A stretch of 32,344 bases of DNA. Origin: an uncultured bacterium. GTDB taxonomy: Bacteria > Calescibacteriota > Calescibacteriia > Calescibacteriales > Calescibacteriaceae. The stretch is taken from contig CALHPK010000030.1 of NCBI GenBank assembly GCA_938036315.1, positions 1-32,344 of the forward strand, read 5' to 3'. The notes beneath the pieces were generated by a model. The model saw only the letters and a program-made list of their open reading frames with translations, was not told the DNA's origin and made no database searches. A program made the translations under genes and the position numbers. This document shows positions 3,907-24,684 of this stretch, one piece after another. Within the stretch, counting starts at the first letter, position 1. Each line of letters opens with the position of its first letter.

Positions 3907-3933
3907 TTATCGGAAATGATCAGCGTTTTTGAA
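3907..3933 (-). promoter_or_regulatory. Sigma-28 (FliA)-like promoter for flgK-flgL
   Basis: On the minus strand TCCGATAA (3907-3914) matches seven of eight positions of the sigma-28 -10 consensus GCCGATAA. Eleven bases upstream is TTCAAAAA (3926-3933), a weak partial match to the -35 TAAAGTTT. The expected start point is about 2-4 nt before the flgK GTG. The -10 is convincing; the -35 is not. Confidence 0.55.
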
Positions 3934-3962
3934 GTCAATATAGTTTGAAGTCAATATAGTTT
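3931..3962. repeat. Tandem duplication, 2 x 16 bp, between flgK and acyl-CoA synthetase
   Basis: The unit GAAGTCAATATAGTTT occurs twice with no mismatch, at 3931-3946 and 3947-3962. Identity extends only 3 nt to the left (TTT), so little microhomology flanks the event. Each copy carries TATAGT on the plus strand (3939-3944, 3955-3960), a -10-like hexamer pointing to the downstream gene, and TTGACT on the minus strand. Confidence 0.95.
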
Positions 3963-3993
3963 TTGATTTTAGATAAAAGCCTAAAAACGTAAT

Positions 3994-3999
3994 TAAGAT
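3994..3999 (+). promoter_or_regulatory. -10-like box (TAAGAT) for a leaderless start
   Basis: TAAGAT sits at -13 to -8 relative to the ATG at 4007. No Shine-Dalgarno is present. The spacing would place transcription initiation at or next to the start codon, as in other genes of this window. Confidence 0.4.
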
Positions 4000-4006
4000 A
4001 CTGCTT

Positions 4007-5788
4007 ATGGCAGAGTTGAGATTCCCAAGCATCCCCGCAGCTTTCTTCAGACAGGCAAGATTGAATCTCGAAAAAACTTTTGAGATATATAAGAAAAATG
4101 GCAGTTGGCTCAAGCGAAGTTTTAAAGATTCAGGAAGTAGAATACTCTCCATAGCCGGGGGATTGAGAAAACTGGGAATAAAAAATGGTGACAAGGTTGC
4201 TATTATGTCCCAGACGCGTTCAGAGTGGACTCTGTGCGACCTTGCAATCCAATCTGCAGGGGGAACTACAGTTCCAATATATGTAGGTATACCACCTTCA
4301 GAAGTATCATTCATTTTAGAAAATTCGGATTCCCAGGTTCTTTTCGTTGAGAAGTTGAAATATCTCAAAGATGTAAAGCTCCCGCGAAACATAAAAGCGG
4401 TTATTGTATTCGATACAGCAGATCAAGAAGGTAAAGTGGAGGGAGAAGATTTTCTACACCTTCAGAAACTTGAGGATCTGGGAAAAGATATACATCAGGA
4501 AATAGATATAGATAGTATAAAGCCCTCGGATCTGTCGACCATAGTCTACACCTCAGGGACAACCGGTGTTCCCAAGGGTGTTATGCTTTCGCATAAAAAT
4601 ATTCTCTTTATGGTGGATTCTGTTTCCAAGATTATAGTTCCCTGTGATGGCGATGTGATTTTTGCATGGCTCCCTTTCGCTCACATTTTCGGGCGTCTGA
4701 TTATATTCTACGCAACATATAACGGCGTCCCAATTGCTTACTCAGAAGGATTAGCAAAGATTCTCGAAAACATCCAGGATGTAAAACCAACATTGTTCCC
4801 ATCTGTTCCGAGAATCTATGAAAAGGCTTATGAAAGAATAAAAGCTCAGGCAAGCTCATCTCCAGCAAAGGAGAAAATATTTGAATTTGCTGAAAAAATA
4901 GGGGCAATCTACGCCGAATACAAAAAGGATGCCGAACCCATACCACCTCATATCCTTGTCGCATACAGAATTGCAGATAAACTCGTTTTCTCAAAGATAA
5001 GGAAAGTTTTCGGGGGAAGAATAAGACTATGTATATCAGGAGGGGCTGCTATTCCACCACATATAGCTAGATTCTTCACAGGAGCAGGAATTACTCTGCT
5101 CGAAGGCTATGGACTTACAGAAACTGCCTCTGTGGTAGCAGTCAACAGAGAAAAGAAATTCAAATTTGGGTCCATAGGACTCCCTATTCCCGGAGTTGAG
5201 ATGAAAGTCGCAGAGGATGGCGAGCTTCTGATAAAATCACCGTCCGTAATGCAGGGATACTATAAAATGCCAGAGGAGAGCAGTAAAGTCTTCACAGAAG
5301 ATGGATGGTTCAAAACCGGTGATATTGTTGAAATGGATGAGGAAGGGTTTATATATTTCAAAGGCAGAAAGAAAAACATAATTGTAACATCCTTCGGGAA
5401 AAACATAGCACCAGAACCAATAGAACTTGAGATACAAAAAGATGCTCTTATAGAGTCCTGCGCTATATTTGGAGATGAAAAACCGTACCTTGTCGCCCTG
5501 ATCTCTCTGAACAAGGAAGAGTTGATGAAGTTTGCAGAAAGTAGGGGTCTCAAAGAAAAAAGCATATCTGAACTCTCAAAATCTCAGGTAGTCAGAGAAT
5601 ATGTTAAATCTGTTATTGATCGGGTTAATTTACACAGACCGTCATACGAGAGAATACATAAGTTTGAGATAATTCCTGAGGAATGGACTGCCGAAACCGG
5701 AGAGCTTACTCCAACTTTAAAAGTCAAAAAACACCTTATATATAAAAAATATAAAGATATAATTGAAGCGATGTACTCATCATCATAA
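4007..5788 (+). CDS. Long-chain fatty acid--CoA ligase, AMP-forming (FadD15/ACSL-like)
   Basis: Activates fatty acids with ATP and CoA through an acyl-adenylate. The 593-residue protein carries the P-loop motif YTSGTTGVPKG (181-191), the adenine-binding motif GYGLTET (367-373), the TGD hinge region (437-439), the GRKKNII segment (453-459) and a C-terminal SFGKNIAPEPIE block (462-473) typical of bacterial long-chain acyl-CoA synthetases of the FadD15/ACSL type. Length and domain order match that group. Membrane association is likely but no transmembrane helix is obvious. It has no Shine-Dalgarno, and a TAAGAT box lies just before ATG. Its last codons (AMYSSS) and stop fall inside a 26-bp tandem duplication. 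The family is certain. Whether it serves beta-oxidation or phospholipid synthesis cannot be told from the neighbours. Confidence 0.92.
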   Translation: MAELRFPSIPAAFFRQARLNLEKTFEIYKKNGSWLKRSFKDSGSRILSIAGGLRKLGIKNGDKVAIMSQTRSEWTLCDLAIQSAGGTTVPIYVGIPPSEVSFILENSDSQVLFVEKLKYLKDVKLPRNIKAVIVFDTADQEGKVEGEDFLHLQKLEDLGKDIHQEIDIDSIKPSDLSTIVYTSGTTGVPKGVMLSHKNILFMVDSVSKIIVPCDGDVIFAWLPFAHIFGRLIIFYATYNGVPIAYSEGLAKILENIQDVKPTLFPSVPRIYEKAYERIKAQASSSPAKEKIFEFAEKIGAIYAEYKKDAEPIPPHILVAYRIADKLVFSKIRKVFGGRIRLCISGGAAIPPHIARFFTGAGITLLEGYGLTETASVVAVNREKKFKFGSIGLPIPGVEMKVAEDGELLIKSPSVMQGYYKMPEESSKVFTEDGWFKTGDIVEMDEEGFIYFKGRKKNIIVTSFGKNIAPEPIELEIQKDALIESCAIFGDEKPYLVALISLNKEELMKFAESRGLKEKSISELSKSQVVREYVKSVIDRVNLHRPSYERIHKFEIIPEEWTAETGELTPTLKVKKHLIYKKYKDIIEAMYSSS

Positions 5789-5820
5789 TTTATTCGATGT
5801 ACTCATCATCATAATTTATT
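5769..5820. repeat. Tandem duplication, 2 x 26 bp, spanning the acyl-CoA synthetase stop codon
   Basis: Two exact 26-bp copies lie at 5769-5794 and 5795-5820. The first holds the last codons and TAA stop of the acyl-CoA synthetase. A third, degenerate copy (ending in the same ATAATTTATT) occupies 5821-5840 and abuts the rimO ATG. Each copy ends in a CATAAT/GATAAT-like hexamer, so the event multiplied a promoter-like element. Confidence 0.95.
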
Positions 5821-5826
5821 CATTGT

Positions 5827-5835
5827 TATGATAAT
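5827..5835 (+). promoter_or_regulatory. -10-like box (TATGATAAT) immediately before rimO
   Basis: TATGAT (5827-5832) overlaps GATAAT (5830-5835), 6-14 nt upstream of the rimO ATG. No Shine-Dalgarno is present, consistent with a leaderless or near-leaderless transcript. Confidence 0.4.
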
Positions 5836-5840
5836 TTATT

Positions 5841-7181
5841 ATGGCGTCCACTCTTTTAAGTAAAAAACTCCGAGGTACCAGAAAATTTTTTCTCGTGAAT
5901 CTTGGGTGTCCAAAGAATCTTATTGATTCCGAGAACCTTTCGCTTGAGCTTATAAAAAGAGGATTTGAACCAGTTCAAGATCCAGATTCAGCAGATGCGA
6001 TAATAATAAATACCTGCGGGTTCATAGAAGATGCAAGAAAAATGAGCCAGAGTTACGCCAATGAGTTTTCAAAGTTCAGAAAGTTTGACAAAAAACTTAT
6101 AGTTCTTGGTTGCTATCCTAAAAGAATAGGAATTGAGAAAGCAAAGCGGAAGATCCCAGCTGATTTTGTCTTCCTCGATTGGAAAGATCTGATTGATGCA
6201 TTTGATAGCATAACACAAATTGGTGATTCAACCGGTAGGAAGATGAGGTTTACTGATGGAACGGGCAGAAATTTTCCATTGAGAATAAATACACTTTCGC
6301 CATTTTCTGCATACCTTAAAATTTCCGAAGGATGCTCACGCTCATGTTCTTTCTGCTCGATTCCACTGATAAGAGGTGCTTTAAAATCACGTCCAGAAGA
6401 GGAAATTTTGAGTGAAGCAAGGTACCTTGCCGATTCGGGAGTGAAGGAATTGATCAGAGTATCACAAGATACTACGATGTGGGGGGTTGATATGAGAAAG
6501 AAGAGAGAAGATTTTCTGAGGTTACTCGATAAACTTTCACAAATAGATGGTATTGCGTGGATAAGGCTTCTTTATATATATCCAGATAGCTTTGCCGAAA
6601 AGCTCATCGATTACATAGCTCAGAATAACAAGATAGTAAGATATATTGAGATTCCTTTTCAACATATAGATGATCAGATACTAAAAAATATGGGCAGAGT
6701 ATCACGCGAGAGCAATATAAGGGCAATAATTGAGAGAATCAAAGAAAAGATTCCAGATATGGCTATAAGAACTGAACTCATTGTAGGTTTCCCAGGGGAG
6801 ACAGATGAAAAATTCATAAAGCTTGTAGAATTTGTCAAGGAATACAAGTTTGATTGGCTTGGAGTCTTTACTTTTTCCCCGGAACCTCAAACAGCATCTT
6901 TTAATATGTGGAAAATAGATAGGATTCCAAAGAAGGTAAAAGAAGAGAGAAAGAACGAGATTATGCGTGTATGGTCAGAGATACTGGAGGAAAAACAGAA
7001 AAGTAGAGTGGGTACAACGCTAAGGTGCATATATGAATCTGAGACATCAGCAAGAGCTTACTTTCAAGCGCCAGAATCAGATGGATTTGTGAAACTGAGG
7101 GGAACAGCAAGTAAAACTCCATTCATCAATGTGAAAATTGTGGATTTTGAATTTGAAAACCTCATAGGAGAAGTACTGTAG
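5841..7181 (+). CDS. rimO: Ribosomal protein S12 methylthiotransferase RimO
   Basis: RimO adds a methylthio group to a conserved Asp of ribosomal protein S12. The 446-residue protein shows the three N-terminal MTTase cysteines C23 (LGCPKN), C59 (NTCGFI) and C91 (LGCY). The radical-SAM cluster is CSRSCSFC (C165, C169, C172). The Q-D-T-T motif appears as QDTTMWGVD, with Trp where Tyr is more usual. The C-terminal TRAM domain covers about 375-446. Length is normal. The initial residues MASTLLSKKLRGTRKF form a short basic leader before the conserved FLVNLGCPKN. RimO is preferred over MiaB because of the spacing and sequence of LGCPKN and the QDTT motif. It follows the acyl-CoA synthetase by 52 bp of repeat and probably has its own leaderless promoter. 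Confidence 0.95.
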   Translation: MASTLLSKKLRGTRKFFLVNLGCPKNLIDSENLSLELIKRGFEPVQDPDSADAIIINTCGFIEDARKMSQSYANEFSKFRKFDKKLIVLGCYPKRIGIEKAKRKIPADFVFLDWKDLIDAFDSITQIGDSTGRKMRFTDGTGRNFPLRINTLSPFSAYLKISEGCSRSCSFCSIPLIRGALKSRPEEEILSEARYLADSGVKELIRVSQDTTMWGVDMRKKREDFLRLLDKLSQIDGIAWIRLLYIYPDSFAEKLIDYIAQNNKIVRYIEIPFQHIDDQILKNMGRVSRESNIRAIIERIKEKIPDMAIRTELIVGFPGETDEKFIKLVEFVKEYKFDWLGVFTFSPEPQTASFNMWKIDRIPKKVKEERKNEIMRVWSEILEEKQKSRVGTTLRCIYESETSARAYFQAPESDGFVKLRGTASKTPFINVKIVDFEFENLIGEVL

Positions 7182-7215
7182 TGTGGAGTGTGGGCATCAG
7201 ACAGGATAATTAAAA

Positions 7216-8517
7216 ATGATTAGGGCTTACGTAAATGCTCTATTAACATTCTATATCATATCTATATTTGTACTATCTGCAGTAAGGACATTATCGGAGT
7301 TGAAAATTTCTGAGAATCCAAACTATTTTTTCTTCTCAAAGTTCTGGTTCTACTCTCTTGTTGTTTACGTAGAATCTATTTTAGCTCAAAGATTCAGCAG
7401 GATACTCGTGTTATCTGTAATTTTCCCTTTTTTCATATTTGCTATATCCACAGAGCTTGATCAGATTCTTTTTTTCAAATCGTTTGATAAGGGGCTATCT
7501 ATGAGCGGTTTTGTGGCATCAATAACAAGCTTTTTTGTTCTGGGGGGTGGGATTCCTAAGGTAAGCTTGATTCTTTTGTTTTCCACCAAATTCATTTTTT
7601 TGCTTTTTTTGGTCATAACCAGAAGGGTTTCTATACTTTACGCCTTAATATTTTTTTCAGTAGCTTACATCCTGTGGAATGTTTCACACATCTATTATTT
7701 ATATGGGAGAATAAAAATTTTTGACGTCATCCTCTTTGAAAATATTGATATCTCATATGTACTGAGCGGGATAGTGTATTTTTCACTTTTTTTAGTGCTA
7801 TACGCAACAAAAGAGAATCACTACATAATAAAAGATTTTTCTCCTCATACCATAATTTATTTGCTGATTTTGTCAGTTCTTGGATTTGCTTCTGCAGGTC
7901 AGCAAGGATACATAAAGATAACCAAGATAATTTTAGATATATTTTCCTTCTATTCAGTAGCATTGATTTTCAAAAAAATAGAGAAGATAGAAAACTATAG
8001 TCACAAAGATGTAAAAGATCTATTAATTTTGCTGGCTGTTATTGTTTCAATATTGACTCAGAGTAGAGGAATATTTGTTGTGGTATTGATTTTTATTTTG
8101 CCTATCTTTGCGGTTTATTACTTACCCCCTCTCCAGCTCAAGGGCACGCTTTTGGGAAATTTGATTTATTCAGCATTTGCTGGACTCCTTTTTATTGTCT
8201 CTCATCTCTCACTAAAAACAACTTTTTCAATAACTTATGAAGCTATCATGATAACTCTGAGTGCTATCTTGTTCTCATTTCTGGCAAAAACTTCAGAAAA
8301 TACCGCCAACCCATCTGTAAGGAGAATTCTTAATACTGCTTTATGCTTTACCCCATTAATACTTTTCAGATCACTCCCAGATATTATTGTAGCTACAGGA
8401 CTTAGTATAATTTCTATGCTTTTCCCTAAATCAAATTTAACAAGGTTTACTTTGATCTTGTATTTCACTTCAAAGTATATTTATCTGAAGGAGAAACTTC
8501 CTAAGTTTCCCTTCTAA
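7216..8517 (+). CDS. Polytopic integral membrane protein of unknown function
   Basis: The 433-residue protein is mostly hydrophobic, with roughly ten or more predicted membrane segments (for example residues about 8-24, 44-58, 63-82, 98-115, 118-136, 140-160, 182-200, 213-228, 266-285, 287-305). Short basic loops and a basic tail (LKEKLPKFPF) separate or follow them. I find no catalytic or transporter signature. AGGA lies about 9 nt before ATG, a modest Shine-Dalgarno. The gene begins 34 bp after rimO and may share its transcript. It ends 9 bp from the convergent lipoprotein gene. The composition resembles envelope polymer or O-antigen-type membrane proteins, but that is only a similarity of character. 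It is clearly a gene; its function is unknown. Confidence 0.75.
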   Translation: MIRAYVNALLTFYIISIFVLSAVRTLSELKISENPNYFFFSKFWFYSLVVYVESILAQRFSRILVLSVIFPFFIFAISTELDQILFFKSFDKGLSMSGFVASITSFFVLGGGIPKVSLILLFSTKFIFLLFLVITRRVSILYALIFFSVAYILWNVSHIYYLYGRIKIFDVILFENIDISYVLSGIVYFSLFLVLYATKENHYIIKDFSPHTIIYLLILSVLGFASAGQQGYIKITKIILDIFSFYSVALIFKKIEKIENYSHKDVKDLLILLAVIVSILTQSRGIFVVVLIFILPIFAVYYLPPLQLKGTLLGNLIYSAFAGLLFIVSHLSLKTTFSITYEAIMITLSAILFSFLAKTSENTANPSVRRILNTALCFTPLILFRSLPDIIVATGLSIISMLFPKSNLTRFTLILYFTSKYIYLKEKLPKFPF

Positions 8518-8526
8518 AATTGGGGC

Positions 8527-10701
8527 TCAATCTATGCATGTCCGGATATCTGATATTGGGGGTTTTTCTCCTTTTTCAATCACGTATTTTGCTTGTTCTT
8601 CTTGTCTATTCCAGAAACACAGGGTGTGGGCTTGTCTGAGGTACCCGAACGGGTAAATAGTGGGATTTGTATACGAGCCTGTTAGTCTTTCCAAATCAAA
8701 TCTCAAAAACTGCTCTCTATTTTTTATTGTTTTTTCCGCCTCTCCCTTTATTTTTTCAGCCTCATCTATGTATTTCTGGAAGTCTTCCCCTTTTATTTTA
8801 CCAATTACTGCCTTATATAGATTGTATGAGTGCATAAGTCGTAGTCGAATAATTTTGAACCCATCGTGAAGCTCAGAACACCAAGTCCTTATAAAAGAAT
8901 CCGAAGCATTACATTTTATTTCCAACTCTGATTCAAGAGGTATTATTTTGTCAGCCATCTCTTTCAGTTTATCTATCTTGTCAGCTTCAAATTTTCTGAG
9001 CTCTTCCTGAGTCATCTTGAGTAGCTCTTCAAACTGTACTCTTTTGGGATGTGTTTCAATTCCGGCCATATATCCAATATCATCGTAGATATCTTCTCCG
9101 GAGATGAAAGGAACTAATCTATTATCAAAAAGGTAGATTGTTTGAAGATTTATGAATTCAAGTAGTAACCTTTCGATTATGTCTGAGCAGTTGCCGTAGG
9201 CTATTGAGTAATGTTCAATGAACTTTTTGAATTCTGACTTAGGATTCCAGAGCATCTTGGCAGTAAGATAATCTGTCATCCAGTAGCCCCATTCATGTCC
9301 AGATGAGAACATAATATGTCCCTCAATCATAGGTAACTTCCTTTTTTCTATCTCATTTACAAGTCCGTTTATATCGATCCATCTTGAATGGATATATTCT
9401 GGTAGAAATGCCGGAACATCAATGTCAGCAGAGCACCAGTAGGCGGACTCGGGTTTATATCGAACTATACGTGATGGTAAAAGTTCAATAAGATAATCTC
9501 TGTGAAGATGGAAATTTGGATGTCCGTACCCTCCCCAGTCCCTGAAAAGATCAAAGAAAAAAACTGTGTGAATGTTGTTCACTATACGAGGATCAGCAAA
9601 CTTAGGAAGGTGATAGTAGAAAATGGATTCGCCTTTGTAATTTATCCAAAGATTAGGATAATTACCTACGTGGTTTACAACAGAGATTGTTACGTGAGGG
9701 TATTTTTCCTCGGTGTATTTTATGATGTAGTTGAGCATATCTATAAGTTCTTCGGGGTTTGATGAGAAGAACTCTCCGAAGCCAATTTCGATATTATCCC
9801 AAGGGATATTCATTAGGAAATCGATCTGGTTTCTGATTTGCTCCTTCCAATTTTTTTCCGATGAAACGAGAACGAATGAATTCTGCAGTGAAGCAGAGCT
9901 TAAAAGTTGAATTTCCGCTCCGACTTTTAAACCTCTCATATGCGCATAATCCACAATGTTTTTAGCATGCTCAATCCATCTAGGAAAGTCAAGGGTTTTG
10001 AGAATACTCCACTGAATGTAGTTTTGTCCAGTTTTTACAAGCCAATCAATAAATTTTCTCGCCTCTTTGAGATTTTCTTCACCCACTTCGTTGAAGGAAC
10101 GAAAATATTCGATCGGATGAAGAAGGTGAAGGTGAATTCCTCTTGTTTTGAATGGGGAGAAATTTTTAGAGTTTAATTCTTGGGGAAGGAAAATTCCGCT
10201 AAATTTTGGAACGAACTCATCAGTAGGGTGGAAAAATCTGATTCCGAGCTCCTCTAAAAAGTTATAAATCGCAAATGATAAGTTGATATTATCTGAAGCA
10301 AAGACTAAGAAAATTGTTGAACTACCAGAATTGATTTTCTTCATTATGAAGCCATTATCTATAGCTTCTCCCAAAAATTTTTTCCCTTCATCAGTTGTTG
10401 AGAACCAGATTATCACAGGTTTAGAAAAATCTGGCTTGCCATCTGAGATTTCAGGAACGTTGTTATTCCATAACCGTTCGATATAGTTTACGAAATCTTT
10501 CTTTGTAATCTCAATATTTTTATCAATGCTTGTATCAAAATAAATAGCGAGATCTTTTGCATCAACTTTCATCATTTTTCTTATACTTGTGATTTCAGAT
10601 GAACTGCATATGTTCTCTGATTGGGGTTTATGATTGCATGAGGAGAGCAAAAAAGAGTAATATAGAAGAAGCAGAATCAGACCAGTAATTGCTCTACTCA
10701 T
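8527..10701 (-). CDS. Large lipoprotein with GH67-type N-terminal domain, glycoside-hydrolase-like
   Basis: The 724-residue protein begins with a lipoprotein signal (MSRAITGLILLLLYYSFLLSSC), lipobox L-S-S-C22. Residues about 50-165 resemble the N-terminal domain of alpha-glucuronidases and related hexosaminidase-type enzymes, ending in the typical AIYNFLEELGIRFFHPTDE. A region from about 180 (FKTRGIHLHLLHPIEYF) to about 450 looks like a TIM barrel, with acidic motifs such as EIGFGEFFSSNPEE and conserved aromatics. The C-terminal 250 residues are helical and charged. I cannot assign a GH family or catalytic pair with confidence. It lies divergently from lnt (the lipoprotein acylation enzyme) and convergently to a membrane protein gene. 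No Shine-Dalgarno is visible; TAAAAT lies 8-13 nt upstream. Likely surface or periplasmic, acting on or binding a polysaccharide. Confidence 0.75.
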   Translation of the reverse strand: MSRAITGLILLLLYYSFLLSSCNHKPQSENICSSSEITSIRKMMKVDAKDLAIYFDTSIDKNIEITKKDFVNYIERLWNNNVPEISDGKPDFSKPVIIWFSTTDEGKKFLGEAIDNGFIMKKINSGSSTIFLVFASDNINLSFAIYNFLEELGIRFFHPTDEFVPKFSGIFLPQELNSKNFSPFKTRGIHLHLLHPIEYFRSFNEVGEENLKEARKFIDWLVKTGQNYIQWSILKTLDFPRWIEHAKNIVDYAHMRGLKVGAEIQLLSSASLQNSFVLVSSEKNWKEQIRNQIDFLMNIPWDNIEIGFGEFFSSNPEELIDMLNYIIKYTEEKYPHVTISVVNHVGNYPNLWINYKGESIFYYHLPKFADPRIVNNIHTVFFFDLFRDWGGYGHPNFHLHRDYLIELLPSRIVRYKPESAYWCSADIDVPAFLPEYIHSRWIDINGLVNEIEKRKLPMIEGHIMFSSGHEWGYWMTDYLTAKMLWNPKSEFKKFIEHYSIAYGNCSDIIERLLLEFINLQTIYLFDNRLVPFISGEDIYDDIGYMAGIETHPKRVQFEELLKMTQEELRKFEADKIDKLKEMADKIIPLESELEIKCNASDSFIRTWCSELHDGFKIIRLRLMHSYNLYKAVIGKIKGEDFQKYIDEAEKIKGEAEKTIKNREQFLRFDLERLTGSYTNPTIYPFGYLRQAHTLCFWNRQEEQAKYVIEKGEKPPISDIRTCID

Positions 10702-10732
10702 ATTTAGAATTTTACTTATTTAGAATTTTACT
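10701..10732. repeat. Tandem duplication, 2 x 16 bp, in the lipoprotein/lnt divergent region
   Basis: TATTTAGAATTTTACT is present twice without mismatch, at 10701-10716 and 10717-10732, starting at the last base of the lipoprotein start codon. The bases flanking the copies do not extend the match, so microhomology is essentially nil. Read on the minus strand, each copy contains TAAAAT, the presumptive -10 of the lipoprotein gene. Confidence 0.95.
10709..10714 (-). promoter_or_regulatory. -10-like box (TAAAAT) for the lipoprotein gene
   Basis: TAAAAT on the minus strand lies 8-13 nt upstream of the ATG at 10699-10701, with no Shine-Dalgarno between. A second copy sits 16 bp further upstream because of the tandem duplication. 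Confidence 0.4.
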
Positions 10733-10790
10733 CATATTTATTATAATTCTTTTTTCTTTTTTTCTTTTTTTAGAATTCTACTTGCTTTTT

Positions 10791-10796
10791 TATAAT
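10791..10796 (+). promoter_or_regulatory. -10 box (TATAAT) upstream of lnt
   Basis: A perfect TATAAT ends 15 nt before the preferred lnt ATG at 10812. No clear -35 stands at 17 bp, the upstream DNA being a T-rich run. A start near 10803 would leave a leader of about 9 nt. Confidence 0.45.
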
Positions 10797-10811
10797 TTTA
10801 ATGGATCTGAG

Positions 10812-12413
10812 ATGCTAAAATTCGTAATTGTTTTTTTGATTCCGGCTTTATTTTCTGCCATTTTATATACACTTTCTCAGCCCAAGTTTAATATATGGTT
10901 TTTATCTTTATTTTTCGTTCTTCCGCTACATGTTATATGGAGGAGAAGGGGGAGCATCAAAGTTTTCTTTCTGGCTGGATTTTTGACTTTTTTCTTCACA
11001 GTCCACTGGATAACCCACGCGATAACTTATTACGGAGGATTTCCTTATTTATTTGCCATCTTGCCCCTTGCGCTTTTAAGTTTTGCCCTTGGAATGTTTC
11101 ATCTTTTTTTTGGGTTGATAAGATCAAAGATATCAAAGCTTGGTATACCATTTTCAATAATAGATCCACCGGTTTGGGTTACAATGGAGTTTATGAAAAC
11201 GTTTGTGTTTACGGGCTTTCCCTGGGCGCTTGTTGGATACTCGCTGTGGCAAAACCCTTCACTGATTCAGATTTCAGATATCACGGGAGTTTACGGGGTT
11301 TCATTTCTTGTTATGATCTTGAATGGATTTTTCTGCGATCTGGCAGATCTTCTGATGTTACGCTCAAGGATAAGTTTGAAAAAAATTATATCAAGTCTGA
11401 TATTTACCTTATCCGCTATCGTTTTAGTAGTTGCATATTCGCGCTTTAGGGAAGCGGAAATAGTTTCTCTGATGGAAGATCTTAAAGAATTCCCGGCTAT
11501 TGTAGTTCAGCCTAACATACCCCAGGATATAAAGTGGAGTTACTATCTGAAGGAAAAATTCTTTTCAGATAATATATCCCTGACGTTTTCTGCTTTGGAC
11601 TCAAATTATGAAAATGTATTGGTAATCTGGCCAGAGACCGCTTTGACTTTTTTCATTGAAAAAGAGAAAGAGTTCGCAGATAGGCTTATTGATATGGCTC
11701 ACAAAGGGTTTTATATAGTAGCTGGGGGGCTGGGGTTCTCCTCAGACAATGGAAAAATAAAATATTACAACAGAGCATTCTTTATAACTCCAGCAGGAAA
11801 AATATACTCTTATGATAAAACTCATCTTGTTATGTTTGGGGAGTATATCCCTCTGAGAAATTACCTTGAGAAAATTCCATTTATCAAAAAAATGATCGAT
11901 GAGATTGAGAAAGTGGCGGGAGATTTTGAGCCTGGCAAAGAAATTAAAGCGCTGGGCGACAAAGGTGATATAAACATAGCTGTACCAATATGCTTTGAAT
12001 CAATATTCCCATATCTTGTCAGAAAAATGGGAAAACATGCAAATATTGTAGCTGTTATAACAAATGATACATGGTTTGGCAGGTCCTCAGGTCCACATCA
12101 GCATTTTTCTGCATCGGTATTCAGAGCAGTTGAACTGAGAAGGTTTGTACTGCGAAGTGCAAATTCTGGAATTTCAGGAGCCATAGATCCTCTCGGTAGA
12201 ATTTTAGCAAAAACTCAACTTGATCAAAAAACTTCCTTCATTGTGAAGGTTAAGTTCCTCGATATTCAGACCTTTTACTCAAAATTCGGAGATATTTTCT
12301 CGGTTGTATGTGTGCTGGTAACTTTGGGACTTTTCCTGTTCGCCACATCATATCGAAGCTATGCATTGTCAGGCAATTCTAAGAAAATCTCTATTAAGAA
12401 AATCTCTATTTAG
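10812..12413 (+). CDS. lnt: Apolipoprotein N-acyltransferase Lnt
   Basis: Lnt transfers an acyl chain from phospholipid to the N-terminal Cys of lipoproteins in the inner membrane. From ATG at 10812 the protein has 533 residues. It has about six N-terminal membrane segments, then a nitrilase-fold domain with the Glu of WPETA, the Lys of YDKTHLVMFGEYIP and the nucleophile Cys of PICFES, and finally one C-terminal membrane helix. The frame is open back to a TTG at 10689, but the extra 41 residues would lie in the repeat and T-rich promoter DNA; ATG 10812, after TATAAT at 10791, fits the family length better. The C-terminus ends KKISIKKISI because of an in-frame 15-bp duplication. Lnt also supports that the adjacent lipoproteins are triacylated. 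Confidence 0.9.
   Translation: MLKFVIVFLIPALFSAILYTLSQPKFNIWFLSLFFVLPLHVIWRRRGSIKVFFLAGFLTFFFTVHWITHAITYYGGFPYLFAILPLALLSFALGMFHLFFGLIRSKISKLGIPFSIIDPPVWVTMEFMKTFVFTGFPWALVGYSLWQNPSLIQISDITGVYGVSFLVMILNGFFCDLADLLMLRSRISLKKIISSLIFTLSAIVLVVAYSRFREAEIVSLMEDLKEFPAIVVQPNIPQDIKWSYYLKEKFFSDNISLTFSALDSNYENVLVIWPETALTFFIEKEKEFADRLIDMAHKGFYIVAGGLGFSSDNGKIKYYNRAFFITPAGKIYSYDKTHLVMFGEYIPLRNYLEKIPFIKKMIDEIEKVAGDFEPGKEIKALGDKGDINIAVPICFESIFPYLVRKMGKHANIVAVITNDTWFGRSSGPHQHFSASVFRAVELRRFVLRSANSGISGAIDPLGRILAKTQLDQKTSFIVKVKFLDIQTFYSKFGDIFSVVCVLVTLGLFLFATSYRSYALSGNSKKISIKKISI
12381..12410. repeat. In-frame tandem duplication, 2 x 15 bp, at the lnt C-terminus
   Basis: AAGAAAATCTCTATT occurs exactly twice (12381-12395, 12396-12410), followed directly by the TAG stop. 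It duplicates the pentapeptide KKISI at the end of Lnt. Only one flanking base extends the match. Confidence 0.95.
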
Positions 12414-12434
12414 TAAAATTTATGCAATTTTTGA

Positions 12435-12440
12435 TATTTT
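12435..12440 (+). promoter_or_regulatory. -10-like box (TATTTT) before thyX
   Basis: TATTTT lies at -13 to -8 from the ATG at 12448, in a 34-bp gap after lnt. There is no Shine-Dalgarno. It is a weak match to the -10 consensus, but the position repeats that seen at other genes here. Confidence 0.3.
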
Positions 12441-12447
12441 TGTAATT

Positions 12448-13236: not shown

Positions 13237-13360
13237 ATGTTTCCCCAAAGATATACACTGCCTAAAAATTACTAAAATTATAACCTTCCTGTTAATTAAA
13301 TTAAACTAAATTTGCTTAAGATACAGCAGAAATTGAAAAATAAAATGGAGGTATAGCAGC

Positions 13361-13822: not shown

Positions 13823-13867
13823 TGTAGATTTTCTTGTTGTTTTTTATATTTTTCTGAAGAGAAAGAA

Positions 13868-13873: not shown

Positions 13874-13879
13874 AGCGAT

Positions 13880-15031: not shown

Positions 15032-15108
15032 ATATATATAAATTAACTCAGAAGAATGCAAATGTAAAATAGAAATAGATGTAGTGTAACAGAAAAGGAG
15101 GATAAACT

Positions 15109-17552: not shown

Positions 17553-17713
17553 CGCATCTTCTGCGTCTGTGGTCATTGAGTAGATGGGCAAACAATAGTT
17601 AGCTATACTAAATATAATTATGTGAAAGATATAATTTTAATCAGAAAATTTTTTAAAATTTTGCTAAACTTTCTCATTTATGATTACGATATATTTACTT
17701 AGGAAAAGGAAAA

Positions 17714-17720
17714 AGGAGGT
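17714..17720 (+). promoter_or_regulatory. Shine-Dalgarno (AGGAGGT) fixing the PilZ gene start
   Basis: AGGAGGT ends 7 nt before ATG 17728. It rules out the earlier in-frame ATG at 17680, which has no ribosome site and would add a basic 16-residue leader overlapping the site itself. Confidence 0.8.
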
Positions 17721-17727
17721 AAAAACC

Positions 17728-18645: not shown

Positions 18646-18832
18646 TAGATAAAAAATTAGTAAATTCCCTTGCCTGGGGTGTTATCCCCTGCGTCCCAAA
18701 TCTTATCTGATGCTTTAGCAAAAAACTCAAAAGAATTCCTGAAATTCTGCTTATAGCAAGCTATCTGAATTTCTTGACAAAACATTTAATTGATATGAGA
18801 GAATATATTATTTGGTTTTGGAGGATCAAAAT
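18646..18832 (+). other. 187-bp intergenic region with three hairpins, before NIL-dxs
   Basis: Three inverted repeats follow one another: GGGG/CCCC with a 6-nt loop (18676-18689) in an unusually GC-rich patch, AGAATT/AATTCT with a 5-nt loop (18732-18748), and ATAGC/GCTAT with a 2-nt centre (18753-18764). A consensus TTGACA lies at 18774-18779, but no -10 stands at 16-18 bp from it. It may be a structured leader, terminator debris or promoter region. No riboswitch class is recognised. Confidence 0.35.
18820..18825 (+). promoter_or_regulatory. Shine-Dalgarno (GGAGGA) fixing the NIL gene start
   Basis: GGAGGA ends 7 nt before ATG 18833. The alternative in-frame start at 18812 lies upstream of this site and adds only VLEDQN-type residues derived from it. 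Confidence 0.8.
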
Positions 18833-19081
18833 ATGAGACATGTAAGAAGGCGGATGTATCTTGTGTATCCGGGAGAACTTGTAAACAAACCAATCTTATG
18901 GGAATTTATAAAAACATTCGATATAGTTGTGAATATAAAAAACGCATCAATGAAGGGAGAAGTCGGACTCGTAACGGTGGAGCTTGAGGGTTCAGAAGAG
19001 GAAATAGAGAGGGGGTTAAAGTGGTTGGAATCCAAAGGGATAAAGACAGAAAGGATTGAGCAGGATGTTATTGAACCATGA
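18833..19081 (+). CDS. Stand-alone NIL-domain protein
   Basis: The 82-residue protein is a single NIL domain, the ACT-like ligand-binding fold found at the C-terminus of MetN-type methionine ABC ATPases and in small proteins. The sequence VRRRMYLVYPGELVNKPILW, then TFDIVVNIKNASM, GEVGLVTVELEGSEEEIERGL and WLESKGIKTERI matches the family's strand-helix-strand pattern. GGAGGA 7 nt before the ATG sets the start. It overlaps dxs by 4 nt (ATGA), so the two genes are translated together. The ligand is unknown; NIL domains in transporters sense methionine, and by analogy this one may sense a small molecule and act on DXS or its expression. Confidence 0.85.
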   Translation: MRHVRRRMYLVYPGELVNKPILWEFIKTFDIVVNIKNASMKGEVGLVTVELEGSEEEIERGLKWLESKGIKTERIEQDVIEP

Positions 19082-20949
19082 TCGTTGAAAAAATAAACAG
19101 CCCTCAAGATATAAAAAAGTTATCCTTGCAAGAACTCGAAGTCCTTGCTAGCGAGATAAGAGAAAAGATAATAGATGTTGTGTCAAGAAATGGAGGACAC
19201 CTTTCTTCCTCTTTGGGGATGGTTGAACTTGTGCTTGCAATTCATTATGTATTTGATCCCCCAGAAGATTTCCTGGTCTTCGATGGAGGTTACCAGGCAT
19301 ACTCTCATAAGATAATAACTGGGAGAAGAGAATACTTCGACACGCTGAAAGTGTTAGGGGGTCTTGGAGGATTTTTGCGAAAAGATGAATCCATCTATGA
19401 TACTTTCGGTGCTGGTCATGTTGGAACTTCGGTATCTGCAGGACTTGGAATAGCAGAAGCCGTAAAAAGACTGAAAGGGAATTCAAGAAAAATCGTTGTA
19501 GTGATAGGGGATGGTGCTATGACCTGTGGAATGGCGTACGAAGCCATGAACCATGCAGGTGAACTTAAGTCAAACCTCATTGTAATACTCAATGACAATG
19601 GAATGTCCATTGCCCCGAACAGAGGTGCCATCGCTCAATATTTCTCAAAAATAATGATCCAGCCAACATTCTACAGAGCAAGGGAAGTAGTCAAAAAAGT
19701 AATAAGAGAAATATTTTCAGAAAAAAGTGAGGATATAATAAGGATCATAAGAAGAGTAGAGGAATCGGTTATATCCTTGTTCACTCCTGGGATTCTATTT
19801 GAAGCTTTAGGATTTTACTATTTTGGTCCTGTGGATGGACATGATATCAAGGAGCTCATTGAAATTCTGAAAAAAGTTAAAGCTTGGAAAGGTCCTGTGC
19901 TCGTTCATGTGAAAACTAAAAAGGGATTCGGATATAGGCCTGCTGAAGAGGATCCTGAAACTTTCCACAGAACACCTCCGTTTGATAGAAAAACCGGAAT
20001 TCCGATCAGAAAATCAAAAAATCCTTCTTTCTCTTCTGTCTTTGCAGATTTTTTAGTAAAGCTTGCAGAAAAGGATGATAGCATAGTAGCAATAACCGCT
20101 GCGATGCCACAGGGAACAGGGCTTGATAAATTCCAAAAAGTTTTCCCTGACAGATACTTTGATGTCGGGATTGCAGAACAGCACGCGGTTACTTTTGCTG
20201 CAGGACTTGCAGTGGGGGGACTCAAACCCGTTGTTGCAATATATTCAACTTTCTTGCAAAGAGCCTATGATCAGATAGTGCATGATGTAGCAATCCAAAG
20301 ATTACCGGTTCTTCTGTGTATAGATAGAGCTGGAATAGTTGGTGAGGATGGTTCAACTCATCATGGGGTATTTGATATTGCTTATCTGATATCGATTCCA
20401 AATATAGTCCTTATGTCCCCTGCTGATGAAAATGATCTTAAAGACATGATTCTTACTGCGCTTGACTGTGGTCTCCCATGTGCTATAAGATACCCAAGAA
20501 GTGATATTTTTGGATTTGCGGAAAGAGTACCTCGGTCTATCCCTATTGGCAAGGCAGAGATGAAAAAAGACGGGAGCGATCTTGTAATATTTGCTTACGG
20601 CACATTAGTTTACTCTGCGCTGAAAGCTGCTGAAGAGATGGAAAAGGAGTTAGGGTGCTCTATTGCGGTAGTAAATGCAAAGTTTGCAAAACCCCTGGAT
20701 GTGGAGCTCATATGCGAGCTATCTGAAAAGACAAAAAGGGTAATAACCGTAGAAGAAGCAAGAAGAAATGCTGGATTTGGCTCGGCAGTTCTCGAACTTC
20801 TGTCTGACAAAGGAATAAAAGTGGAAAGGTTTATAAGGCTAGGAGTCCCAGATGAATTTGTCGAGCAAGGATCACGTCAGGAACTCCTTTCTATTCTTGG
20901 TCTTGATGAAGAAGGTATAAAAAGGGCAATCCAGAAAGCCTTACTCTGA
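19078..20949 (+). CDS. dxs: 1-deoxy-D-xylulose-5-phosphate synthase DXS
   Basis: DXS condenses pyruvate and glyceraldehyde-3-phosphate to DXP, first step of the MEP isoprenoid route and a thiamine and pyridoxal precursor. The 623-residue protein has GGHLSSSLGMVEL with H41, GAGHVGTS (H114), the thiamine-diphosphate motif GDGAMT (from 144) through NDN (172-174), FGPVDGHD, and the transketolase-type AEQHAVTFAAGLA and IDRAGIVGEDGSTHHG. An oddity is residue 72. The usual D-x-G-H-Q-A-Y reads DGGYQAY, with Tyr replacing a His that is highly conserved. The ATG lies within the NIL gene end. A hairpin terminator follows 36 bp after the stop. ThiD, another thiamine gene, is 3 kb downstream. Confidence 0.95.
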   Translation: MIVEKINSPQDIKKLSLQELEVLASEIREKIIDVVSRNGGHLSSSLGMVELVLAIHYVFDPPEDFLVFDGGYQAYSHKIITGRREYFDTLKVLGGLGGFLRKDESIYDTFGAGHVGTSVSAGLGIAEAVKRLKGNSRKIVVVIGDGAMTCGMAYEAMNHAGELKSNLIVILNDNGMSIAPNRGAIAQYFSKIMIQPTFYRAREVVKKVIREIFSEKSEDIIRIIRRVEESVISLFTPGILFEALGFYYFGPVDGHDIKELIEILKKVKAWKGPVLVHVKTKKGFGYRPAEEDPETFHRTPPFDRKTGIPIRKSKNPSFSSVFADFLVKLAEKDDSIVAITAAMPQGTGLDKFQKVFPDRYFDVGIAEQHAVTFAAGLAVGGLKPVVAIYSTFLQRAYDQIVHDVAIQRLPVLLCIDRAGIVGEDGSTHHGVFDIAYLISIPNIVLMSPADENDLKDMILTALDCGLPCAIRYPRSDIFGFAERVPRSIPIGKAEMKKDGSDLVIFAYGTLVYSALKAAEEMEKELGCSIAVVNAKFAKPLDVELICELSEKTKRVITVEEARRNAGFGSAVLELLSDKGIKVERFIRLGVPDEFVEQGSRQELLSILGLDEEGIKRAIQKALL

Positions 20950-20984
20950 AAAATCCATAAAATGGAATCTATCCTCTGATTCTC

Positions 20985-21010
20985 TAAACCTTCGGTTTAT
21001 GATTTTTTCT
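20985..21010 (+). terminator. Rho-independent terminator after dxs
   Basis: TAAACC-TTC-GGTTTA forms a perfect 6-bp stem (20985-20999) followed by TGATTTTTT (21000-21008). The stem is AT-weak, but the tetraloop-like CTTCGG centre stabilises it. The right arm and T-tract are duplicated immediately downstream. Confidence 0.7.
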
Positions 21011-21034
21011 CCTGGTTTATGATTTTTTTTCTCT
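20994..21034. repeat. Tandem duplication, about 2 x 20 bp, of the dxs terminator right arm
   Basis: GGTTTATGATTTTTTCTCCT (20994-21013) is followed by a near copy with two extra T (21014-21034). The duplicated part is the 3' half of the hairpin and its T-tract, so an alternative 3' arm is available. Confidence 0.85.
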
Positions 21035-21062
21035 CCGCTACAATATTGAACTGCAAGGAAAT

Positions 21063-21068
21063 TAAATT
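21063..21068 (+). promoter_or_regulatory. -10-like box (TAAATT) before the ABC ATPase gene
   Basis: TAAATT lies at -12 to -7 from the ATG at 21075. No Shine-Dalgarno is at normal spacing. TTGAAC at 21046-21051 is too close for a standard -35. Confidence 0.3.
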
Positions 21069-21074
21069 TGATAT

Positions 21075-21866
21075 ATGGCTGGAGACATTCAAAAAATACC
21101 AGAAGATCGGGCTTTAGTCAAAATTGTGAATATAACTAAAAAATTTAGTGAGGTTACTGCTCTTGAAAATGTTTCATTTGATATTGAAAAAGGGAAGATA
21201 ACAGCAATACTTGGTCCTTCTGGTTCTGGAAAATCGGTTCTTGTCAAACTTATTTTGGGGCTTATGGAGCCTACGGCGGGTCAAATAATTTTCAAAGGAG
21301 TAAATATTTTTGACTTAACAAAGGAGATGATGTACAAAATGCGGGAGAGTTTCAGCATACTTTTGCAAGATGGAGCTCTGTTTGATTCAATGACAGTTGA
21401 GGAAAATATAGCTTTCCCTCTCAAGATCAGAAAGTTACCAAAGCAGGAGATAAAAAGAAGGATAGATTTTTATCTTGAGAATGTTGGGTTGGCAGGATTT
21501 CATAGGAGGTATCCATCAGAGCTTTCGGGAGGACAGAGGCGCAGAGTTGCTCTTGCCAGAGCTCTTGCTACCGAACCAGAAATCATAATTTTAGATGAAC
21601 CGACAACAGGTCTTGATCCGATAACAACGGAAAGCATAGAATCTCTGATAATAAATATAAAATCACAAAATCCAGATAAGTCATTTATACTTATAACCCA
21701 TGATCCATTTTCGGCTTTCAAACTATCCGATAACATTGCAGTCCTGCTTTTCGGTAAACTTATAGCATACGGTCCCAAAAATAAAATTATCCTACTGATG
21801 GAAGAGAACAAAATAATCTACGACATATTCAAAAGAGCTAATATAAGGTTGATTCAGGCTGTTTAG
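21075..21866 (+). CDS. ABC transporter ATP-binding protein, MlaF/Ttg2A-like
   Basis: The 263-residue ATPase has Walker A GPSGSGKS (47-54), Q-loop LLQDGALFDSMTVEENIAF (97-114), signature LSGGQ (150-154), Walker B IIILDEP (170-176) and switch His209. The phrase QDGALFDSMTVEENIAFPL is characteristic of the MlaF family, which powers phospholipid transport between the outer membrane and inner membrane with MlaE permease and MlaD. No MlaE or MlaD homologue flanks it here, so partners must be encoded elsewhere. It stands alone between the dxs terminator and the thiolase-like gene. The ABC class is certain; the Mla assignment rests on motif similarity. Confidence 0.82.
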   Translation: MAGDIQKIPEDRALVKIVNITKKFSEVTALENVSFDIEKGKITAILGPSGSGKSVLVKLILGLMEPTAGQIIFKGVNIFDLTKEMMYKMRESFSILLQDGALFDSMTVEENIAFPLKIRKLPKQEIKRRIDFYLENVGLAGFHRRYPSELSGGQRRRVALARALATEPEIIILDEPTTGLDPITTESIESLIINIKSQNPDKSFILITHDPFSAFKLSDNIAVLLFGKLIAYGPKNKIILLMEENKIIYDIFKRANIRLIQAV

Positions 21867-21905
21867 ATGCGTTTTTGTAAATTCTGAAAAATTCAACATT
21901 TTCCA

Positions 21906-21911
21906 TATTGT
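21906..21911 (+). promoter_or_regulatory. -10-like box (TATTGT) before the thiolase-like gene
   Basis: TATTGT at -13 to -8 from ATG 21919, without Shine-Dalgarno. The same hexamer with a different first base (GATTGT, AATTGT) occurs at exactly the same position before thiD and mnmA. Confidence 0.4.
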
Positions 21912-21918
21912 CATTTTT

Positions 21919-23274
21919 ATGGCGTCGATTGAATATGTTTGTGGATATATCCCATTCCTCAGAATAAAGGGAGATGAAATTAGATCTCAGGCTAGGGTGA
22001 GGGGACCAGCTGAAAAATGTGTTGCAAACTACGACGAAGATCCAATCACTCTCGCATATGAGTGTGGTTCAAAAATATTGGAAAGAATTGAGAAAAATGC
22101 CGGTAAAATAAGAATGCCTGTGGCAATTATTTTTGTCTCATCGTCAATTGATGGCGAAAAAAATCCCGCTGTGAATCTGCTGGAAGCTTTGGATCTACCC
22201 CCTGGCTCCTTTGCTACTTCCATCTCTGGTGGACCCAACGCCATTGTAGATGCAATATATATTGGTAAAAATCTCGTGGAATTCGGCTCTTATTTTTACT
22301 GCATTATTCTGACAGGGGAGAAAAGAACAGGACAAACATGGGATGTAGATTTTGGTCTAAGTAGCGCAGGCGGAGGTATCCTCATATCTAAAAGGGAAGA
22401 CGGAGGATTGTTTAAAATAGGAAAGTTCCACTTTATACTAGAAAGAACATATGACGTTTCAAAGATTGATGGAAAGATAGTAGCCTATGACGAAAGATTC
22501 GCCACATCTGAGGAGTATCTGAAACTTCTCAGATTCATAAAGTATGAAGGGAAAATAATCTTTTCTGCTCCAACTTTTGGAATCCTCACGGGGATAGTCA
22601 GGGCATTAAAAGTAAATGATGATGTAATTAATTCTTTTGGGTGTCTGGGGAATGCTCAGATTCCTGTATCTCTTGCCTATTCGACCGGGATACTCAAAGC
22701 TGGTGAGAAGCTTTTAGCAGTTGGTTTTGGAGATGGACTGAAGGCAGTTGAGCTGATATTCGAGGGAGATTCATCTCCTTATGATGAAATACTACGTAGT
22801 TTTGAAAGAAAGAAATATATAAATTTCGGTCATTACTTCAGAATAAAAGATATGGAAGGATTTCCAGAAGACGAAATTTCCGTACCTATGTTATGGAGAG
22901 AAAGAAAGCAGAATTTAAGATTTTATGGGCAGATGTGTGGCGGTTGTGGGAATATTCAATTTCCAATGCAGAACTACTGTATAGTATGCGGAAGTAAAGA
23001 TCTTAAAGAAGAAAAGCTTCCAAAAGTTGGTGAGATTTTTACCTTTACAGAAGATTTCCTGACCCAATACTCTGAGCTCGAACCCCCGCTTCCAATGCTA
23101 GTTGTTAAGCTCAAAAATGGAGCCAGAGTATATCTTCAGGGTGTGGAATTTGATTCCAGCCCGAAAATAGGCGATAAGGTGGAGCTAACACTGAGGATCT
23201 TGAATAAATCGGAGGGACAGAAAAACTACTTCTATAAAGCAAGGAAAATTTCAGAACTTTCATTTGATTTTTGA
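21919..23274 (+). CDS. Thiolase-fold (KAS III/HMG-CoA synthase-like) protein fused to DUF35 zinc-ribbon/OB domain; catalytic residues apparently lost
   Basis: Residues 1-290 resemble the KAS III/HMG-CoA synthase fold. GNAQIPVSLAYSTGILKAGEKLLAVGFGDGL (244-274, here read as two blocks) is the usual C-terminal half. Residues 330-360 form a zinc ribbon (C340-x2-C343, C354-x2-C357), and 361-450 an OB-fold, together the DUF35 module that in other organisms channels acyl-CoA to a partner thiolase. The catalytic triad seems absent. The nucleophile Cys region reads ATSISGGPNAIV (99-110), the His region SAPTFG (216-221), and the Asn region SFGCLGNA (239-246). The protein may therefore be a scaffold or acyl-binding subunit. 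No Shine-Dalgarno; TATTGT precedes ATG. The stop lies in a direct repeat. No partner thiolase is nearby. Confidence 0.75.
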   Translation: MASIEYVCGYIPFLRIKGDEIRSQARVRGPAEKCVANYDEDPITLAYECGSKILERIEKNAGKIRMPVAIIFVSSSIDGEKNPAVNLLEALDLPPGSFATSISGGPNAIVDAIYIGKNLVEFGSYFYCIILTGEKRTGQTWDVDFGLSSAGGGILISKREDGGLFKIGKFHFILERTYDVSKIDGKIVAYDERFATSEEYLKLLRFIKYEGKIIFSAPTFGILTGIVRALKVNDDVINSFGCLGNAQIPVSLAYSTGILKAGEKLLAVGFGDGLKAVELIFEGDSSPYDEILRSFERKKYINFGHYFRIKDMEGFPEDEISVPMLWRERKQNLRFYGQMCGGCGNIQFPMQNYCIVCGSKDLKEEKLPKVGEIFTFTEDFLTQYSELEPPLPMLVVKLKNGARVYLQGVEFDSSPKIGDKVELTLRILNKSEGQKNYFYKARKISELSFDF

Positions 23275-23323
23275 TCTTCAATCTCTAATTTTGATTTTTG
23301 ATTTTGATTTTTGATCTTCAATC
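23263..23323. repeat. Direct repeats, 21 bp, 40 bp apart, at the thiolase-like gene end
   Basis: A 21-bp sequence beginning TTTGATTTTTGATCTTC occurs at 23263-23283 and 23303-23323. The space between contains a partial third copy (from 23290). The first copy holds the TGA stop of the thiolase-like gene and the second reaches into the 3' end of the convergent small gene. Confidence 0.9.
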
Positions 23324-23626
23324 CTCTCCTAAGTCTTTGCTGGGTTCCTCCCACCCTCTACGGAGATTCAATTTTGCTGGTGTCCTATCAGGCCTTTTGA
23401 AAGGAGATTTTTCGAATGGGGATTTTTCAAAAATCCTTCTCCTATCTTTTTCTCTTTTGATTTTGAATTTTTCAAGTCTGGGAGCCGGAAGATCAGCTCC
23501 GCCCGGCTCAGTTATAGCCTGAACTCTTTTCTGAGGGACAATCAAAGAAACTACCGGAGCAGAAAATATTGAGATTTTAATCAACTCTCTCCTTAGCTTG
23601 TCTACATCTTTCTGTCTTCTTTTCAT
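23318..23626 (-). CDS. Small protein with Tat-like signal
   Basis: A 102-residue frame starts at ATG 23626, just after an in-frame stop at 23639-23641. Residues 12-37 read LRRELIKISIFSAPVVSLIV and then PQKRVQA, which resembles a twin-arginine export signal (RRxLIK plus a short hydrophobic core). The remainder is basic and charged, with a duplicated EKSPF EKSPF caused by a 15-bp near-repeat (23399-23428). No family is recognised. The ATG itself lies in a 16-bp tandem repeat array, and no Shine-Dalgarno is clear. The plus-strand frame over the same DNA has no comparable features. It could be a genuine secreted protein or a decaying gene. Confidence is moderate. Confidence 0.5.
   Translation of the reverse strand: MKRRQKDVDKLRRELIKISIFSAPVVSLIVPQKRVQAITEPGGADLPAPRLEKFKIKREKDRRRIFEKSPFEKSPFKRPDRTPAKLNLRRGWEEPSKDLGED
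23399..23428. repeat. Near-perfect tandem repeat, 2 x 15 bp, inside the small Tat-like gene
   Basis: Two 15-bp units (23399-23413 and 23414-23428) differ at two positions. They are in frame and encode EKSPF twice on the minus strand. Confidence 0.85.
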
Positions 23627-23675
23627 CTTGTTTTCTCTTCATCTTGTTTTCTCTTCATCCTGTTTTCTCTTCATC
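23622..23675. repeat. Tandem repeat array, about 3.4 x 16 bp
   Basis: TTCATCTTGTTTTCTC occurs at 23622-23637 and 23638-23653 exactly, at 23654-23669 with one change, and partially to about 23676. On the minus strand each unit contains ATGAAGAG, and the first supplies the start codon of the small Tat-like gene. Because 16 is not a multiple of three, each added unit shifts frame. Confidence 0.95.
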
Positions 23676-23835
23676 TCCCCAAACTCTGTTTTTCCTGTAT
23701 TTCTAACCATCTTAGTTTTCAATTCAACCTTAATTTAAGTTTAGTAACTTGTCCCTATTTTAACTGATTTTATGATAAATTAGTTTTAAATTTTGTGTTT
23801 TTTGTATGGTTTGATATTCGGTTTTAAATTGAAGT

Positions 23836-23841
23836 GATTGT
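23836..23841 (+). promoter_or_regulatory. -10-like box (GATTGT) before thiD
   Basis: GATTGT at -13 to -8 from ATG 23849. It overlaps the alternative GTG start (23834), so if it is the promoter the ATG is the true start. Confidence 0.3.
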
Positions 23842-23848
23842 AAGTGGT

Positions 23849-24646
23849 ATGTTTCGAGCATTGACAATAGCTGGTAGCGACAGTAGCGGTGGAGCTGGAA
23901 TTCAGGCTGATCTCAAGGTTTTTCAGGTGTTTGGTGTTTTTGGTATGACAGCTGTAACGTCAATAACTGCTCAGAATACTTTTGAAGTCTCAGAGATATA
24001 TGATGTTCCTGGGATGGTGGTTTATTTGCAAATAAAGGCAGTGGTTGAGGATATAGGGGTAGATGCTGCTAAGACCGGAATGCTTTCTCAGGAGGACATT
24101 ATTGAGAATGTTGCAAGAGCTATCAAGGACTTTAGGCTTGAAAAATTAGTGGTAGATCCTGTTATGGTTGCTAAAAGCGGTGCGGAGCTTTTGAGGAGTT
24201 CTGCAATTGAATCTTTTATAAAGGAGGTGATACCTAAAGCTTTAGTTATTACTCCAAATATCAGGGAAGCTGAAAAAATAGCAAATGTGCAGATCAGAAG
24301 TAAAAAAGATATGAAAGATGCAGCAAAAGCCATATATGCTTTGGGAGCAAAATGTGTCATCGTAAAGGGTGGGCACATCAAACTCGATGATAGACCCGGT
24401 TCCGTTACGGATATAGTATATCTTAATGGAGAATTTTACGAGTTGGTGTACCCCTTTGTTGAGACAAAAAATACGCACGGAACTGGTTGTACCTTCTCGG
24501 CTGCAATAACTGCAAATCTTGCTAAAGGTAAGGATATTCTCACATCAGTACGATTAGCCAGGGCTTACCTTCAATCTACAATTGAGAATTCCCTGAACAT
24601 CGGTCGCGGTGCGGGTCCTGTGTCTCATGAGCCTTTTATTTTGTAG
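23849..24646 (+). CDS. thiD: Hydroxymethylpyrimidine/phosphomethylpyrimidine kinase ThiD
   Basis: ThiD phosphorylates HMP and HMP-P in thiamine diphosphate synthesis. From ATG 23849 the 265-residue protein begins MFRALTIAGSDSSGGAGIQADLK, the family's opening. It continues with TAVTSITAQNT, VVDPVMVAKSG, ITPNIREAEKI and the anion-hole motif NTHGTGCTFSAAI. Length is normal. A GTG five codons upstream (23834) keeps the frame but adds VIVSG before the conserved start, so ATG is preferred. It stands alone: 222 bp from the upstream minus-strand gene, and convergent with the lyase gene. No thiamine riboswitch is recognisable upstream. The product feeds TPP used by DXS in this window. Confidence 0.93.
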   Translation: MFRALTIAGSDSSGGAGIQADLKVFQVFGVFGMTAVTSITAQNTFEVSEIYDVPGMVVYLQIKAVVEDIGVDAAKTGMLSQEDIIENVARAIKDFRLEKLVVDPVMVAKSGAELLRSSAIESFIKEVIPKALVITPNIREAEKIANVQIRSKKDMKDAAKAIYALGAKCVIVKGGHIKLDDRPGSVTDIVYLNGEFYELVYPFVETKNTHGTGCTFSAAITANLAKGKDILTSVRLARAYLQSTIENSLNIGRGAGPVSHEPFIL

Positions 24647-24654
24647 CCATTCTT

Positions 24655-24684
24655 AAGTAGAATTCAAGTAAGTAGAATTCAAGG
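24655..24684. repeat. Tandem duplication, 2 x 15 bp, after thiD
   Basis: AAGTAGAATTCAAG followed by T (24655-24669) or G (24670-24684), just after the thiD TAG stop. It lies in the gap between two convergent genes. Confidence 0.92.

Follow-up and report, generated by a model that had tools for sequence, protein, structure and literature searches.

Defective flap processing in yeast rad27 mutants and in bacterial polA nuclease mutants yields duplications that typically have short direct repeats on either side. The birth of tandem repeats from non-repetitive DNA is poorly understood, and in the literature on bacterial mutators for such births we found a single case, a laboratory topA R168C mutant of E. 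coli that acquires repeat-independent tandem duplications of 2-19 bp at hotspots (Bachar et al. 2019, PMC6954433). Small tandem duplications have also been ascribed to the fill-in of staggered breaks (Schiml et al. 2016, as cited in PMC8355091), a process that in mammals requires Ku (PMC8355091).

Here we describe short head-to-tail duplications in a natural bacterial genome. The window analyzed, 32,344 nucleotides long, is the whole of contig C30 in a draft genome of 1.87 Mb (32 contigs, 85% complete) from a hot-spring bacterium. GyrB searches assigned this host to a small family that also contains Candidatus Calescibacterium; the other members share 71-75% GyrB identity with it, and among the relatives found in this way there was no second genome of the host's own genus. 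Two family members, G001 and G003, belong to the same sister genus (mutual DNA identity about 88-90%) and provide the sister-genus counts (748 kb); the samples from G002 and G004 were too small for a verdict. The genome-wide counts cover 1.81 Mb (1,814 kb) of the host genome, joined from separate stretches. Genes were called with a simple longest-ORF scheme, so that a few genic or intergenic assignments are wrong in detail, for example that of a repeat at 10701-10732. Flanking genes in the window were identified with Pfam and NCBIfam as flgL, flgK, an AMP-binding ligase, rimO, lnt and thyX, together with dxs, phosphomethylpyrimidine kinase and a CitE-like lyase.

An earlier, sequence-only reading had listed ten tandem repeats in the window. 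All ten are present, six of them perfect with a unit of at least 15 bp. flgK (-) and the AMP-binding ligase gene (+) diverge from a gap that holds a 16-bp perfect duplication with a junction overlap of 3 bp (3928-3962); the orthologous gaps of relatives differ too much to be aligned. At the end of the ligase gene, a 26-bp perfect duplication (5769-5821) spans the final codons and the TAA stop; relatives have no second copy 3' of this stop. Another 16-bp perfect duplication (10701-10732) occupies the divergent gap between the gene at 8527-10701 (-) and lnt (+), and the final lnt codons are themselves formed by a 15-bp perfect in-frame duplication (12380-12410, KKISI KKISI stop), short of which the Lnt proteins of relatives stop. 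The gap 3' of dxs contains an imperfect duplication of 20/21 bp with one indel (20994-21034). Identical 21-bp copies, 40 bp apart, are found at 23263-23323 (starts at 23263 and 23303), the first lying over the stop of the gene at 21919-23274, and a 13-bp perfect tandem duplication (23288-23315) lies within the same segment. Two repeats are held by a small ORF at 23318-23626 (-), which encodes 102 aa without a Pfam match and may not be a real gene: a 15-bp in-frame duplication with 13 of 15 positions identical (23399-23428) and a 16-bp array of 3.4 copies (23622-23675), perfect over 23622-23659 and with a single mismatch in the third copy. A 15-bp perfect duplication (24654-24683) lies in the gap 3' of the phosphomethylpyrimidine kinase gene. 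Finally, flgL has at its 3' border the 8-bp repeat TTTATCTA (2.1 copies, 827-843), of a size for which the chance background is sizeable: across the intergenic DNA of the whole genome, 35 such repeats were observed and 7 expected. The repeats had been placed, with one exception, in or beside intergenic DNA. Two corrections apply: the lnt duplication, besides touching a border, lies inside the 3' end of the gene and in frame, and the array at 23622-23675 extends over the small ORF's start codon.

The feature is broader than seen in the window, whose repeats are a sample of a genome-wide pattern. Perfect tandem duplications with a unit of 12-31 bp number 135 in 1.81 Mb. The intergenic DNA (146 kb) holds 93 with a unit of at least 12 bp, where an order-3 Markov model predicts 0.1, and 124 perfect ones with a unit of at least 10 bp, against 1.1 expected. 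The genome-wide comparison with random DNA proposed in the sequence-only reading thus gives a large excess. Between 8 and 31 bp the counts tail off gradually with unit size, and a genome search up to 300 bp found no unit longer than 31 bp. Sizes had already been judged too varied for a single transposon footprint, and the continuous 8-31 bp spectrum bears this out; target-site or excision scars of transposons, for which a fixed unit length is expected, were therefore rejected. The window is the densest contig, with 7 duplications of unit at least 12 bp compared to 2.4 expected (P = 0.012, uncorrected for its having been picked). Density shows no significant dispersion between contigs (P = 0.13), and therefore the entire genome is affected. 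At the ends of two contigs (C12:88-144 and C14:88-141) the same 24-bp array, GGAAGGGATTAAGAAAGGTAGGGA, occurs at equal offset with slightly different perfect lengths; it is probably a repeat that broke the assembly.

The sister genus shows no comparable excess. G001 and G003 together contain 6 perfect duplications in 748 kb versus 135 in 1,814 kb of the host (P = 4e-14), a 9-fold lower overall density, and for intergenic DNA alone the counts are 2 in 44.5 kb versus 91 in 147 kb (P = 9e-9), which puts the host about 14-fold above the sister genus per intergenic base. When G001 and G003 were compared with each other over 16.7 kb of aligned intergenic DNA (14% divergence), one of 72 indels of 8-40 bp was a tandem duplication. 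In G003, but not in G001, what appears to be coding sequence contains a tandem duplication of 65 bp (L179:644-774). Orthologous gaps had been expected to reveal single-copy ancestral states, and at C10:37283, where a thiolase-like gene has its stop codon within a 22-bp unit whose second copy lies downstream, both G001 and G003 have one copy. Single-copy ancestry is direct at this site alone; at most other borders the relatives have diverged too far to align, and there it is suggested. Duplicated protein linkers aligned with relatives likewise gave almost no spanning matches. Beyond the family, E. coli, a Ligilactobacillus plasmid and assorted GTDB loci (non-thermophile and mixed, 381 kb) yielded 2 duplications. 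Two thermophile plasmids, each represented by small samples, reached 33/Mb (Thermus pTT27; L185 and L213) and 80/Mb (the AT-rich Deferribacter pDF308; L194 and L212), so the excess may not be unique to the host genome. Thermophily alone was rejected as the cause given the low density in family relatives, although these two plasmids are high.

The copies differ in age. Tandem pairs with 0, 1, 2, 3 and 4 mismatches were observed 46, 46, 28, 28 and 80 times, compared to 0, 0, 1.3, 7.8 and 40 in simulated sequence. Copy pairs span every stage of decay, which supports a long-running process. Copies of all ages, together with a density far above that of the sister genus, uphold the lineage-specific mutational process that had been postulated from the window. 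We consider it likely that the duplications record a mutational bias towards tandem duplication that is specific to this lineage, has acted over a long time and is filtered by purifying selection. The host lineage would make de novo head-to-tail duplications of about 8-31 bp at a far higher rate than the sister genus, and purifying selection would clear coding DNA of them, sparing those that keep the frame and fall in tolerant linkers or at the ends of genes. Survivors would therefore be located in gene gaps, where they would decay by point mutation.

Junction microhomology averages 1.41 nt, compared to 0.90 nt for hypothetical duplications placed at random, in line with the weak flanking microhomology reported earlier; 36 of 91 junctions have none (44 expected at random), and there is a mild excess of 2-4 nt microhomology. 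The units are poorer in GC than their flanks (25.5% versus 29.6%), no association with hairpins was found, and no clear sequence preference or motif was apparent at the junctions. Weak microhomology, AT-rich units and the absence of a hairpin link together disfavor slippage at repeats as the sole source. With slightly less than even confidence, we attribute the duplications to repair events in AT-rich DNA, at nicks or strand breaks that lie close to one another, and not to slippage alone. Such repair would comprise fill-in or strand displacement followed by Ku-independent rejoining, which might sometimes be guided by 2-4 nt microhomology. The fill-in and joining of staggered breaks offered by the sequence-only reading fits the weak microhomology and the AT-rich units, but less well the modest microhomology excess and the failure to find Ku.

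Slippage during replication, or annealing at microhomology, that proceeds at the usual bacterial rate and is merely better tolerated in AT-rich, weakly constrained intergenic DNA seems to us an unlikely explanation. The mild excess of 2-4 nt microhomology leaves room for slippage-type annealing, and intergenic DNA (29.5% GC) takes a larger share of the host genome than in relatives. However, composition is already built into the Markov null, the number of junctions without microhomology is near that expected at random, and per intergenic base the host exceeds the sister genus about 14-fold.

Genes for repair and DNA topology were inspected in the host. No match to a Ku end-joining gene was obtained in the host (85% complete) or in the family members searched, while control genomes were positive, and Ku end joining was rejected as the cause on this ground. 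PolA is present with its N-terminal 5' nuclease motifs, and the nuclease domain looks intact; a DHH/RecJ-type gene and a MutS gene are present too, so that loss of any of the three does not explain the duplications. Duplications from a polA/FEN flap defect were likewise rejected, given the PolA nuclease motifs and the weak junction microhomology. TopA (C21:24051-25934; L112:4051-5934) retains the equivalents of R35 and R168 and the catalytic residues checked, and since neither R168C nor R35P occurs in it, these substitutions themselves are not the cause. In its AHExIRP motif the host TopA has Leu at the position of E. coli P370, whereas Pro is found in 6 of 6 other type IA domains compared and in the Thermotoga and mycobacterial TopA of known structure. 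A lineage-specific change in TopA could leave closely spaced single-strand breaks that are then repaired into tandem duplications, comparable to the de novo, repeat-independent 2-19 bp duplications of E. coli topA R168C (PMC6954433). We regard this as quite improbable, as R168, R35 and the checked catalytic residues are intact and the junctions have no preferred sequence. Moreover, at least two private changes at otherwise conserved sites are also seen in other members of the TopA set, so that the Leu is a weak lead and may be neutral. A scan of viral contigs found no TopA relatives. The genome has one more type IA topoisomerase ORF (C2:104858-108652; 1264 aa), which reads as a putative reverse gyrase, as expected in a high-temperature organism.

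Where the duplications lie also speaks to selection. The unit length is a multiple of three in 32 of the 37 fully genic cases (P = 3e-11), and the genic survivors occupy linker-like stretches of proteins that, judged by sequence alone, appear to be SecA, Rho, sigma-54 and a kinase. Gaps between convergent genes are densest (0.89/kb), followed by divergent (0.71/kb) and co-directional ones (0.54/kb), and duplications are fewest just upstream of downstream start codons. The 91 intergenic units share no motif, every 6-mer being found in at most 8 of them; a dispersed regulatory repeat family was rejected for want of such a common motif. Such a distribution favors neutrality, being the outcome expected of purifying selection acting on random duplications, and gives no hint of regulatory selection. 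That regulatory or terminator duplications were retained by selection since they tune expression, the regulatory payoff that had been suggested earlier, is therefore very improbable: many duplications do lie at gene borders, and an 11-bp unit doubles a Shine-Dalgarno-like sequence between two ribosomal protein genes, but the lack of a common motif, the maximum in convergent gaps, the minimum near start codons and the genic copies in protein linkers all argue against it.

An assembly artefact, in which overlaps stayed unmerged where contigs were joined across AT-rich, low-coverage gaps, would suit a metagenome-type draft of 32 contigs with repeats clustering in AT-rich gaps but is just as improbable, because unmerged overlaps would be identical and yet imperfect pairs match perfect ones in number, those with 1-3 mismatches being as frequent as ageing predicts; moreover, genic units preserve the reading frame, unit sizes are spread continuously, arrays of at least three copies with a mismatch exist (e.g. 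23622-23675), and both relatives have one copy of the 22-bp unit that is repeated at the thiolase stop codon.

A further proposal is that a natural bacterial lineage lives stably with a mutator of this kind, which might be a variant topoisomerase or break-repair enzyme, and that de novo birth of minisatellites is in consequence a major force shaping its intergenic DNA and protein linkers; this is possible but doubtful. A roughly tenfold excess beside a sister genus without one offers a comparative handle on the cause, and the causal change should accordingly be among the differences in replication, topology and repair between the two genera. The results also caution that short repeats at gene borders are not regulatory elements by default.

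Compared with known systems, the host duplications share with bacterial VNTR or minisatellite loci the location at gene borders, the tandem units of 10-30 bp and some arrays of at least three copies; unlike these loci, they are nearly all two-copy, unrelated in sequence and very numerous, and are newborn repeats, not expanded arrays. The duplications of rad27 and polA mutants are similarly tens of bp long in otherwise non-repetitive DNA, but the host junctions mostly have 0-3 nt of microhomology and its PolA nuclease domain looks intact. Staggered-break fill-in likewise produces duplications that are head-to-tail, tens of bp long and poor in microhomology, although its eukaryotic route is Ku-dependent and Ku was not found in the host. 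With topA R168C the host has in common short head-to-tail duplications (2-19 bp in the mutant, 8-31 bp in the host) that are largely independent of existing repeats, as the 36 of 91 junctions without microhomology illustrate. The host differs in being a natural lineage with Arg at TopA position 168 and an intact R35, in the genome-wide spread of its duplications and in their longer units. On this comparison, the host pattern appears to resemble the topA R168C mutator more than classical slippage.
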